Shown in pieces: positions 5,878 to 27,274 of a stretch of DNA of 35,188 bases. The translations under genes were made by a program, and so were the position numbers. The notes under the pieces were generated by a model. That model was given only the letters and a program-made list of their open reading frames with translations, made no database searches and was not told the origin of the DNA. Numbering within the stretch: the first letter of the stretch is position 1; every line of letters starts with the position of its first letter. The stretch is from a virus. Location: positions 1-35,188 of the IMG/VR virus record IMGVR_UViG_3300037504_000875. One strand, 5' to 3'.

Positions 5878-8569
5878 CGCTCGTTTCCTCCTCTTTGTCC
5901 TTCTTCTCTTCTATATCTGTATCCCCTATAACTGCATCCAACCATGTAAAAGGACACTCGGGGTTATCACATCGCGCTATATCTTCAGCGCTTACTGGTT
6001 TATTACACAAATTACAAAATTTAGCATCTTCTACAGGAACAAATAAACCAGCGCTTCTGTCATCTTGGCTGCTCATATAGTCGGCGGCCCCTTTCATGTC
6101 AACCGGATTTATAGATTTTTCTGTAGTTTTTTCGGAGTTTGACTCTTCGGATGACATATTATTATATTTGTCTGGCTTAACACTTTTCTTGAGGTTTATA
6201 TAAATATCAGTAATTATATCATTAATAGCCTCATAATTAGTATGATTTGGGACACCACCTTCTATCATAATTTTACAAGATTGTGATATATCAGTGATCT
6301 CTTCAATTATTTGGATAGCCGCCATGTCAGCTATTTCATCAATAGAAACATACTCATCATCCGGCTCTATATTAGGAGCCTTAGTTATAATTTCTCCATT
6401 AAACTCCTTGCCAGATGTAACTCTTTTTATTGGTTCGTTATCCAACACCACCCTCTCAAAACTACCTTCACCGTGCAACTTATTAAAGTGATCCTGAATT
6501 TCCCTTACAAAGTCACCAGTAGCTTCGGGAGTTTTTGTTCTATTATAAACAACCATCATGTTACCAGGGGTGTTCTCTATGTCATAAAGATCATCTACTA
6601 CTTTGGTAAATCTTTCGGCTACTGTTCCTGGTTTAGTAGAATGTATTTTTTGAGAGCCCTCTATATGTCTCCTTATATCGTGCTCAACTAGTCTATTTAA
6701 AAAGTCTTTTCTATTAGTTTCTTTGCCCATCTGGGCAAGCTCTCGTCTTGTCTTGGCCTCTTCTCTTTTGGTTTCAGCGTTTATTTTCTTAATTTCATCG
6801 GCCATGGTTGACGTTTTCGGAGCTGGAGTCTTCCTATTCCCTATTTTATCAACCTCTTGTTGTTGCCTAGTTCTGCTTTTTTCTGCTGCCTGTTTCGCCC
6901 CAAGATAGCTTGCGATATCTTGTTGGAAATAATACATTCCACCAGTTCCGGCAGAAATAGATATTCCAGCCAAAACCCTCCTAGAAAGGGGGCCTATAAC
7001 TGCATCGGCCATAAATTCATTATATCCACGATAATCGTCTTTATTTACAATGTCAGCTCTATTAGCGAACTCGTCGCCATAGCGAGTTACAACCCGATCT
7101 GGCAATATAGATTCTGTATTTTTTATTTTTCGGGGTATTCCGCGAGAATCTAATAGCCTCTTCTGATCTAACCATAGCTTAAGATCGTCTTCACCAAGAG
7201 TTTTCCCCTTATTTCTAACAAAATTGACTTCAAGCGTTTTGGGGTCAACTTTTATAGGCTTAACGGAACCTTCAGGGCCGCCAGTCTTTAATATTCTATA
7301 TAGTTTGTTGTCCCCTGTTTTTGCTTCTCTCTTTAGAGCCTCTTCTACCATAGATTTATATCTAAGAGACCCGTTCTCATACGTGATTGGTTTACCTGAA
7401 TAGGCGTCCAGCTGACCAAACTTGGGAATAAAACTCTCTCTGGATGCGCTATCAGACAAATCTGCAACATAATTTTTGTTAAGCCTAAACCTATCAACAT
7501 TATAACCAGTCCATTTGGGGCCAGCCCTCATGCCATACTTGGCCCCTTCTTCTGGAGTCATACCTTTGGCCTTCATTAATGTTTTAGTTATCCACTTGTT
7601 AATTGCTCCAGCTTTCTCCATTTCCGTCCAGCTTTCTTTCCCTGTCACTTTAGCAAACTGTATAAACTCCGGTGGAACAGCTTCAGTTGGATCTGGAGCC
7701 CCAAATTCCTTTAATTTCCTAACCTGGAGTCTCCCAAAGCCATCAACATCCATGTGTTTCAGATCTTTAAGATTATCCATATTTTTGAGGCCACCCTGGA
7801 GCGCGAACTTTGGTCTACCAACAGTAAGAGCTGCAACACCCAAAATTGTAGCAATACCACCGGCAAGGAGAACGAGCTTCGCTCTATCCCTTTCATCTTT
7901 CTCAGAATATTCATTCCTAAAGGTGCCCCACGCATCTTTCAATATTTGTTGTTTAGCCACTTCTCTATCAAAAGCCGCTTTGGTTTCTGTTATACTAGCT
8001 CTGGCTTCTCCAGATTCACCTGGAACATTTTTTACAGAAACATAGCCCCCCCTAGAGAGTTTAGCTTTGCCGTATTTAGACCGATAGGCCGCTTCTCTCA
8101 TCTTCTCTTCTTTTTTGAGATATTCTTCGGGGTTATCTATATACTCAGCCCAATCTGGTTTACCCAGTTCCTTAGCATCTTCCTTGACCATCTTTTCTAT
8201 TTCTTTCTCAGAAGCGTCAGGATAAGCTTTTTTGTATTGGGACATTCTTTTAGGAACAGCAATAGAAGCATATTTTGAAGTTCTCCCAGAAAAACTTCTC
8301 TTACCACCATGCTTTCCTTTCGAGGTTTTTGGAGTAGAGCCTGCCTTCCCATCCTCTACAAATTTTCCATCTGGACCGCGGGGGTGTTCACTCTCCTCAA
8401 ATTCCTCTTTGGACATAGCCTTAGTTTTAAATAAAAAGGAGAGACCTTTTATCTCTTTAGCGCCTTTATTTTTTTTGCGGAACTTCCCATCTGAATCTCT
8501 GGGATGCTCATGCTCCTCAAATTCCTCTTTGGACATTTTTTTGGTCTCTATCAGCTCTGCCAATCCCAT
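5834..8569 (-). CDS. 911-aa head-operon protein with tandem HPR..DGKF repeats and a capsid-like zinc-ribbon tail
   Basis: Residues 9-30 and 49-70 are two copies of the same 22-residue unit, with core SKEEFEE.EHPR..DGKF. The HPR..DGKF signature is one I recall from phage head-morphogenesis (MuF-associated) proteins. A hydrophobic segment lies near residue 235 (LVLLAGGIATILGVAALTV) and a weaker one near 540 (RRVLAGISISAG). Residues 835-845 read QDDRSAGLFVP, almost identical to the major capsid protein, followed by a four-Cys zinc ribbon (FCNLC...CDNPEC) and an acidic tail. It lies between the protease and the 729-aa gene and starts next to the protease stop. It is probably virion or procapsid associated. 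The large middle part is unrecognised and could be an injected effector. Confidence 0.7.
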   Translation of the reverse strand: MGLAELIETKKMSKEEFEEHEHPRDSDGKFRKKNKGAKEIKGLSFLFKTKAMSKEEFEESEHPRGPDGKFVEDGKAGSTPKTSKGKHGGKRSFSGRTSKYASIAVPKRMSQYKKAYPDASEKEIEKMVKEDAKELGKPDWAEYIDNPEEYLKKEEKMREAAYRSKYGKAKLSRGGYVSVKNVPGESGEARASITETKAAFDREVAKQQILKDAWGTFRNEYSEKDERDRAKLVLLAGGIATILGVAALTVGRPKFALQGGLKNMDNLKDLKHMDVDGFGRLQVRKLKEFGAPDPTEAVPPEFIQFAKVTGKESWTEMEKAGAINKWITKTLMKAKGMTPEEGAKYGMRAGPKWTGYNVDRFRLNKNYVADLSDSASRESFIPKFGQLDAYSGKPITYENGSLRYKSMVEEALKREAKTGDNKLYRILKTGGPEGSVKPIKVDPKTLEVNFVRNKGKTLGEDDLKLWLDQKRLLDSRGIPRKIKNTESILPDRVVTRYGDEFANRADIVNKDDYRGYNEFMADAVIGPLSRRVLAGISISAGTGGMYYFQQDIASYLGAKQAAEKSRTRQQQEVDKIGNRKTPAPKTSTMADEIKKINAETKREEAKTRRELAQMGKETNRKDFLNRLVEHDIRRHIEGSQKIHSTKPGTVAERFTKVVDDLYDIENTPGNMMVVYNRTKTPEATGDFVREIQDHFNKLHGEGSFERVVLDNEPIKRVTSGKEFNGEIITKAPNIEPDDEYVSIDEIADMAAIQIIEEITDISQSCKIMIEGGVPNHTNYEAINDIITDIYINLKKSVKPDKYNNMSSEESNSEKTTEKSINPVDMKGAADYMSSQDDRSAGLFVPVEDAKFCNLCNKPVSAEDIARCDNPECPFTWLDAVIGDTDIEEKKDKEEETSDGQKEGTESQTSSE

Positions 8570-21673: not shown

Positions 21674-21748
21674 TGGCTCCGAGACTAGGATTCGAACCTA
21701 GATTGCCTGAGTCAAAGTCAGATGTCCTGCCCATTAGACGATCTCGGA
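21674..21748 (-). tRNA. tRNA-Gln (anticodon TTG)
   Basis: All arms fold: acceptor TCCGAGA/TCTCGGA, D stem GTCT/GGAC, anticodon stem-loop with loop CTTTGAC (TTG at positions 34-36), and T arm CTAGG-TTCGAAT-CCTAG. The discriminator is G and the CCA end is encoded. It reads CAA and CAG codons. Its first 31 nt overlap the end of the dCTP deaminase-like gene, so processing of the tRNA would cut that mRNA. Confidence 0.95.
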
Positions 21749-24337: not shown

Positions 24338-24651
24338 CTTTCCTTCTCCTCACCCTTCCCCGGAAACATCACCGGATAGCCGTTTTTATCTTTCCGTGAA
24401 ATCGCCGGTATACACTCAGTTTCGTGCGGCTCATTACACGACATAAGATCGTCCAAGTGACAACCACACTCCCAAATGTCTGGATTCACAAGTCCATCGT
24501 AGCCATTTTCTTTTAGATATTTTGCGACTATTTCTTTAATGTTCATGCCGCTAGGCGGCGGGTCTGGCCATGCCTTGGGCCTTTCCATCTTATCGACATC
24601 GGGCAGCGGATCATTCTGGTTAGCGCCAATTTCGCTTCTCTCTTTGACCAT
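24334..24651 (-). CDS. 105-aa IKEIVAKYLKENG family member with duplicated N-terminus
   Basis: ATG at 24651 with AAGGAGGG upstream. Residues 1-50 are encoded by a 147-bp segment that recurs exactly at 26156-26302. It holds a Pro-rich leader (DVDKMERPKAWPDPPPSG), then MNIKEIVAKYLKENGYDGL. The cysteine part ECGCHLDDLMSCNEPHETEC follows. The family and possible metal site are as for the 77-aa gene downstream. It overlaps both neighbours by a few nt. Confidence 0.75.
   Translation of the reverse strand: MVKERSEIGANQNDPLPDVDKMERPKAWPDPPPSGMNIKEIVAKYLKENGYDGLVNPDIWECGCHLDDLMSCNEPHETECIPAISRKDKNGYPVMFPGKGEEKER
24503..24649. repeat. 147-bp exact direct repeat, copy 1
   Basis: I compared it by eye with 26156-26302 and found no difference. 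It encodes the Pro-rich leader and the IKEIVAKYLKENG start of two family members about 1.65 kb apart, implying recent duplication or recombination in the phage. Confidence 0.9.
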
Positions 24652-24962: not shown

Positions 24963-24984
24963 AATGCCTTACTCCTTTATGTTC

Positions 24985-25182
24985 TTAGTGCCCTTTTATT
25001 GACACTCCCCACGCCTTTAGGCGGAGGATTCTCAGGCTACGGTCCCTAACGGGACCGTTGACGCCTGAACGGCCTGCCCGGCCGCTAAGATAATAAAGAT
25101 CATCTAGAAAGTCATCTAATTCATACGGCATTATTCGTCTCTTCTTTGAGGAACTCCAAAAGAGATCCCTCACTTTTGCCAT
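24985..25182 (-). CDS. 65-aa chimeric ORF whose C-terminus is encoded by an IS605-like right end
   Basis: ATG at 25182 with AGGAG upstream, overlapping the 145-aa gene by 62 nt. The first 32 residues are acidic and ordinary (AKVRDLFWSSSKKRRIMPYE, then LDDFLDDLYYL). From residue 33 on the sequence (SGRAGRSGVNGPVRDRSLRI, then LRLKAWGVSIKGH) is the translation of the hairpin array. The original C-terminus was probably replaced by the insertion. It may be a dead remnant. Confidence 0.45.
   Translation of the reverse strand: MAKVRDLFWSSSKKRRIMPYELDDFLDDLYYLSGRAGRSGVNGPVRDRSLRILRLKAWGVSIKGH
24999..25085 (-). mobile_element. Solo IS200/IS605-like right end (TnpB guide-RNA scaffold-like), copy A
   Basis: On the minus strand there are three stem-loops in order: CGGCC/GGCCG (25070-25084), an 8-bp stem ACGGTCCC/GGGACCGT (25039-25058), and CGCC-TAAA-GGCG (25012-25023) inside a weaker outer stem. 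The segment then ends AGTGTCAA. This order and the AGCCTGAGAATCC linker are what I recall from the 3' ends of tnpB elements, which also serve as the scaffold of the guide RNA. No tnpA or tnpB is nearby. It is in the direction of transcription, so it would be present in the transcript. Confidence 0.55.
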
Positions 25183-25845: not shown

Positions 25846-26331
25846 TTATGATTCATCGGCGGTCTCCTCACTCTTCCCCGGAAGCGTAAACGGAATTTCT
25901 ATAGGATCGGTCACCTCATCCAGGTCCTCCCTCTTTCCCGGACGCATCACCGGAAAGCCATCTATCTCTTCTACCAAGAAAGCCGGGATGCACTTGGTTT
26001 CATGCGGGTCACCACATGGCATAAGATCGTCCAAATGACAACCACACTCTGTGCCTTCATTCGCAAGCCCTTCGTAGTCATTTTCTCTCAAATAGTTTGC
26101 GACGATGTAGCTGATGTCATACTTCCAATCGTCTAGGTCTACAAGCTCGCCGTGACCATTTTCTTTTAGATATTTTGCGACTATTTCTTTAATGTTCATG
26201 CCGCTAGGCGGCGGGTCTGGCCATGCCTTGGGCCTTTCCATCTTATCGACATCGGGCAGCGGATCATTCTGGTTAGCGCCAATTTCGCTTCTCTCTTTGA
26301 CCTCTTCAACGACATATTTAAGATCTTTCAT
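25846..26331 (-). CDS. 161-aa IKEIVAKYLKENG family member with an internal duplication
   Basis: ATG with GGAGGCG upstream. The N-terminal part contains the exact 147-bp repeat. It is followed by a second, diverged helix unit (DISYIVANYLRENDYEGL) and the cysteine part ECGCHLDDLMPCGDPHETKC, then a Pro/Glu-rich tail. So the helix motif has been doubled inside this copy. It starts within the end of the YkgJ-like gene (14-nt overlap). Function unknown. Confidence 0.75.
   Translation of the reverse strand: MKDLKYVVEEVKERSEIGANQNDPLPDVDKMERPKAWPDPPPSGMNIKEIVAKYLKENGHGELVDLDDWKYDISYIVANYLRENDYEGLANEGTECGCHLDDLMPCGDPHETKCIPAFLVEEIDGFPVMRPGKREDLDEVTDPIEIPFTLPGKSEETADES
26156..26302. repeat. 147-bp exact direct repeat, copy 2
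   Basis: The partner of 24503-24649; see there. The flanks differ immediately outside on both sides. Confidence 0.9.
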
Positions 26332-27245: not shown

Positions 27246-27274
27246 CCCCGGCCTTTAGGTGTGGGGATGTTGAC
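27246..27274. mobile_element. IS605-like terminal hairpin, copy B
   Basis: On the plus strand CCCC and GGGG flank GGCC-TTTA-GGT in an imperfect stem, followed by ATGTTGAC. The CTTTAGG loop and the closing TTGAC resemble copy A. Only one hairpin is seen here, so the assignment is weaker. It abuts the 5' end of the 59-aa frame. Confidence 0.35.

Follow-up and report, generated by a model that had tools for sequence, protein, structure and literature searches.

Between the open reading frames at 25570-25121 and 24962-24651, the minus strand of the tailed-phage record analyzed here (the window, meaning the whole 35,188-nt stretch) carries a complete copy of a 91-nt omegaRNA scaffold at 25089-24999, with the sequence CTTAGCGGCCGGGCAGGCCGTTCAGGCGTCAACGGTCCCGTTAGGGACCGTAGCCTGAGAATCCTCCGCCTAAAGGCGTGGGGAGTGTCAA. 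The scaffold starts 31 nt after the end of the upstream gene, leaves both ORFs open, lies in the sense orientation relative to its minus-strand neighbors, and occurs once in the record. The first-pass annotation had described three ordered stem-loops ending in AGTGTCAA and placed them between two phage genes. Both the hairpins, on the minus strand, and the position were borne out, the unit being slightly longer than described. The RNA was predicted to form three consecutive stem-loops (−50.4 kcal/mol, z −5.2), and none of 200 shuffled sequences was equally stable. The exact sequence GGGGAGTGTCAA was found at 24999-25010, and we found neither a promoter-like site around the scaffold nor a terminator-like site at it.

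Several other features of the record were seen along the way. A 48-codon ORF (MPYELDDFLDDLYYLSGRAG..., 24985-25131, minus strand) begins within the last part of the upstream gene and continues across the scaffold; a small phage gene, cut by the insertion, may account for its first 15 codons. Two paralogous ORFs near the scaffold contain an identical direct duplication of 147 bp (24503-24649 and 26156-26302), the identity of which suggests that it is recent, and a tRNA-Gln (TTG) gene lies at 21674-21748 on the minus strand.

Table 1. Features in and around the scaffold in the phage record (feature, position, strand, basis)
TTAT, candidate target site/TAM, directly 5′ of the scaffold	25090..25093	−	sequence; L037 and L079 copies start at TTAT
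omegaRNA scaffold/IS200-IS605 right end, without tnpB	24999..25089	−	model R2 match, fold z −5.2, alignment with six other loci
tnpB 3′ coding-end remnant ILAAGQAVQASTVPLGTVA*	25032..25091	−	translation; frame compared with L057 TnpB
Stem-loop 1 (GCGGCC GGGCA GGCCGU)	25069..25085	−	GGGCAG motif invariant in 10-sequence alignment
Stem-loop 2 (UCAGGC/GCCUGA), inner hairpin CGGUCCC/GGGACCG	25032..25068	−	folding, pair covariation
Terminal right-end hairpin (stem 3)	25006..25028	−	IMG/VR pattern scan, ORF context, folding
Right-end tip GTGTCAA	24999..25005	−	invariant across aligned set
Putative guide TAAAAGGGCACTAAGAACAT, the 20 nt immediately beyond the right-end tip	24979..24998	−	analogy with reRNA (PMC8612924)
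Weak left-end-like IS605 hairpin relic CCCCGGCCTTTAGGTGTGGGGATGT	27246..27270	+	match to model R3 (E 0.026) with two pairs broken; 0/100 shuffles

We built a covariance model (R2) from six loci (L037, L024, L057, L121, L122, and L123), leaving the window out, and used it to search the phage record. The scaffold was found at 88.9 bits, with an E value of 4.3e-19. The hairpins had previously been read as an IS605/TnpB right end with a second role as a guide-RNA scaffold, and the lack of a match to IS605-family right ends had been named beforehand as evidence against that reading; the match obtained with this independent model favors it. At the scaffold site Rfam gave no match, either at the gathering threshold or at an E value of 10, and such sites are therefore easily overlooked.

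Relatives of the scaffold were found in both viral and cellular genomes. The same GGGCAG stem-loop is present in the scaffolds of the viral loci L024, L037, L057, and others, and GGGCAG-type scaffolds also occur in three metagenome-assembled genomes (MAGs; L121 to L123), labeled uncultured Firmicutes, Candidatus Methanoperedens, and Ktedonobacterales. The tip GAGTGTCAA is common to these relatives and the phage copy, in which the right-end hairpin with this tip, a feature by which IS200/IS605 right ends are recognized, is present. Searches with close DNA patterns found 0 or 3 loci. A scan of IMG/VR with the pattern GAATCCYC(N8-24)GGGGAGTGTCAA matched at least 119 stretches, and many of these matches lay at or just past the point where a long ORF containing zinc-finger cysteines ends. 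At L037, L057, and L123 the scaffold overlaps the TnpB ORF or directly follows it, and the three proteins tested from these loci all carry PF01385, PF07282, and PF12323 (OrfB_IS605, Cas12f1-like TNB, and HTH_OrfB_IS605, respectively).

The shared fold is supported by covariation. In an alignment of seven sequences, 87% of cells pair, compared with 32 to 51% when the partners are slid, and 14 pair changes are both-sided, against a shuffle mean of 6.3. All stems of the phage copy are intact, and its departures from the other six sequences at conserved positions amount to one wobble and loop changes. Measured from the GGGCAG loop, the coding remnant ILAAGQAVQASTVPLGTVA* shares its reading frame with the C terminus of the L057 TnpB protein, NIKSVGQTAQALSIT*. 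Another mark of IS200/IS605 right ends is that they overlap the 3′ end of tnpB; in the phage this overlap is limited to the remnant. As judged from its sequence and predicted structure, the segment at 25089-24999 is the right end and omegaRNA scaffold of an IS200/IS605 TnpB element.

The rest of such an element is missing. That no transposase lies nearby had been noted before, and a profile search extended this to the entire phage record, which yielded no TNB domain and no Y1 transposase and hence neither tnpB nor tnpA, while control genomes gave matches. The record therefore contains no complete IS605 element, of which tnpB and/or tnpA would be part, and no TnpB-like protein adjacent to the scaffold of the kind that marks TldR-type systems. 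A stretch of 700 nt ending at the right-end tip also contains no left-end hairpin upstream of that tip, and a left-end model built from 21 loci reached at best 9.2 bits (E = 0.45) at the scaffold. Because the upstream gene ends so close by, a left end could scarcely fit in between. Since no left-end hairpin precedes the scaffold, the element is a right end only, and the lack of tnpB and tnpA as well makes it an immobile right-end-only derivative and not a standard mobile minimal element. The earlier suggestion of a minimal non-autonomous element was thus not supported for the standard PATE-like type, which requires a left-end hairpin in addition to the right-end hairpin.

A weak left-end-like hairpin does occur elsewhere in the window (Table 1), with TTAT 22 nt upstream, and is possibly the relic of a second element. 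We rejected it as the partner end of the scaffold; it lies on the opposite strand, and its tip has the same orientation as that of the scaffold.

The 5′ edge of the scaffold directly abuts TTAT. In the L037 and L079 copies of a related element the flanks differ and the common sequence begins at TTAT, and the left ends collected here, which were selected with a pattern of that kind, begin with TTAY. By chance, TTAT would be expected at one exact position in about 0.5% of cases and within 6 nt in 3 to 4%. Its position is modest support for an element that inserted 3′ of TTAT and whose left end and tnpB were later lost, and it agrees with, but is no proof of, the idea of a guide and a corresponding empty site. 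No copy of the exact 20-mer of guide plus flank was found in IMG/VR, and neither IMG/VR nor phages yielded relatives of either neighboring gene. Four phages with a related capsid protein match the phage record in their structural and packaging genes and have nothing that matches near the scaffold site, so they supplied no empty site. A search for the host by way of scaffold relatives around the three MAGs gave none closer to the phage copy. A phage record with a related capsid protein (G157) encodes an intact tnpB (L177, 10345-11409, minus strand) with a different right end, GAATCTTTCACCTTTAGGTGTTGAGAGGCTCAA.

The explanation that we favor, with a probability of roughly 0.8, is that an IS200/IS605 TnpB element left the scaffold behind as a solo right end between two cistrons of a tailed phage. 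The sequence and structural identity, the intact stems, the remnant of the tnpB C terminus, and the lack of tnpB, tnpA, and a left-end hairpin are all direct observations at this locus. To account for them, an element would have inserted 3′ of TTAT and then been stripped of its left end and of almost the whole of tnpB. The immobile scaffold that remained would be transcribed in the sense direction within the operon mRNA. This transcript would carry the scaffold together with the guide UAAAAGGGCACUAAGAACAU.

TnpB trims only the 5′ end of its RNA, and the processed RNAs measure 79 to 466 nt (PMC10278001); the guide corresponds to approximately 16 nt of the DNA next to the right end, and the insertion motif also serves as the target motif (PMC8612924). 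A matching host TnpB, if made, could accordingly bind the phage hairpins and trim their 5′ side, and the next 16 to 20 nt after GTGTCAA would serve as its guide. The target would be TTAT-TAAAAGGGCACTAAGA, that is, the site in phages without the insertion, and the phage's own copy of the guide sequence, being preceded by GTCAA, would be spared. By analogy with these systems, such use of the scaffold is plausible, and we treat it as a hypothesis, since no empty site, close phage relative, or host was found.

A more active role, in which the scaffold is a retained (domesticated) guide RNA that arms a host TnpB to cut competing phages without the insertion, as an RNA-alone drive, appears unlikely to us. 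Such a role would suit the scaffold's sense orientation within the operon and the TTAT adjoining it, and in plasmids TnpB can behave as a gene drive (PMC11870625). It would also suit the intact stems, in which only a wobble and loop changes set the phage copy apart from the other six sequences, but a recent relic would show intact stems too. Further support comes from a Ktedonobacterales MAG (G003) that encodes TnpB and also harbors a TnpB-less family (L136, L138, L141, and L142) of approximately 300 to 400 bp, ending in the same scaffold, in which both-sided pair changes number 8, against 2.3 in shuffles. Because the copies may derive from different tnpB parents that already carried these compensatory changes, selection in the TnpB-less state is supported by them but not proven. 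Against a retained guide RNA, no host TnpB was identified and the IMG/VR search gave no empty-site target. We consider the fullest version of the proposal, an immobile, protein-less phage guide RNA that borrows a host TnpB to destroy co-infecting phages without the insertion and so forms an RNA-only gene drive, to be distinctly improbable.

It is very improbable that the scaffold is a minimal element that can still move, with stem-loop 1 standing in for the left-end hairpin that TnpA uses. The 5′ edge does present TTAT followed by a hairpin, and mini-elements consisting of a left end and a scaffold exist, as in L035. The hairpin, however, starts 4 nt after TTAT, compared with approximately 15 to 18 nt after TTAY in known left ends, the record holds a single copy, and the poor score of the left-end model (9.2 bits, E = 0.45) leaves stem-loop 1 unsupported as a surrogate left end. 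Stable hairpins in an intergenic gap might also be a phage terminator or another structured RNA with a merely fortuitous likeness to a right end, a reading that we dismiss given the E value of 4e-19 with an independent model, the tnpB-like reading frame, and the lack of any terminator-like site or Rfam match.

The solo right end shares with the omegaRNAs/reRNAs of IS200/IS605 TnpB elements (PMC8612924, PMC10278001) a terminal hairpin ≤10 nt from the guide boundary, upstream stem-loops that overlap the 3′ end of tnpB, and a putative guide taken from flanking DNA, but it differs from them in having no tnpB and no left end. PATE-like non-autonomous IS605 derivatives comprise a short left end, the last bases of tnpB, and the right end (PMC7290912), and the archaeal virus HRTV-DL1 carries a PATE with a strong RNA signal (PMC10544981). 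Likewise protein-less and carried by a virus, the phage scaffold retains the right end with the final bases of tnpB; we did not file it as a PATE because the left-end palindrome that PATEs have is absent. The Ktedonobacterales family has the same three-stem scaffold without tnpB but differs in its several copies and its approximately 300 to 400 bp of common upstream sequence. In the viral contig L035, a mini-element (7617-7771; scaffold with a left end) and a scaffold that has no left end (6477-6570) resemble the phage copy in that unrelated DNA begins at almost the same position of tnpB. The first of these, however, still has its left end after TTTAT, and in the second the terminal hairpin is mutated and TTAT is absent. 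TldR-associated guide RNAs (PMC13418256) also belong to a TnpB-derived, phage-encoded guide-RNA system, from which the phage scaffold differs in having no TnpB-like protein.

Orphan scaffolds without TnpB proved to be fairly common and not rare. We surveyed 123 partly redundant scaffold sites on viral stretches among the matches listed; an ORF of >300 amino acids stood at the expected place before the scaffold at 50 of these and a partial or degraded tnpB at 20, while 28 ran off the end of the record or stretch and were not counted as assessable. On other viral contigs, 25 of the 95 assessable sites among the matches listed had no tnpB upstream, defined as none within 2.2 kb (1.6 to 2.2 kb where the stretch ended sooner), and about 10 of these 25 had a left-end candidate. 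Intact TnpB guide scaffolds thus persist in phages without the nuclease gene. If some of them are used in trans, viruses would supply guides to cellular TnpB nucleases, and this would alter how one reckons the spread of TnpB and the part it plays in phage conflict; as an ordinary relic, the scaffold is a useful annotation. Near-identical TnpB-less scaffold elements were also seen at different sites in two viral contigs, three in L046 and one in L078; the full copy in L046 shows a left end.
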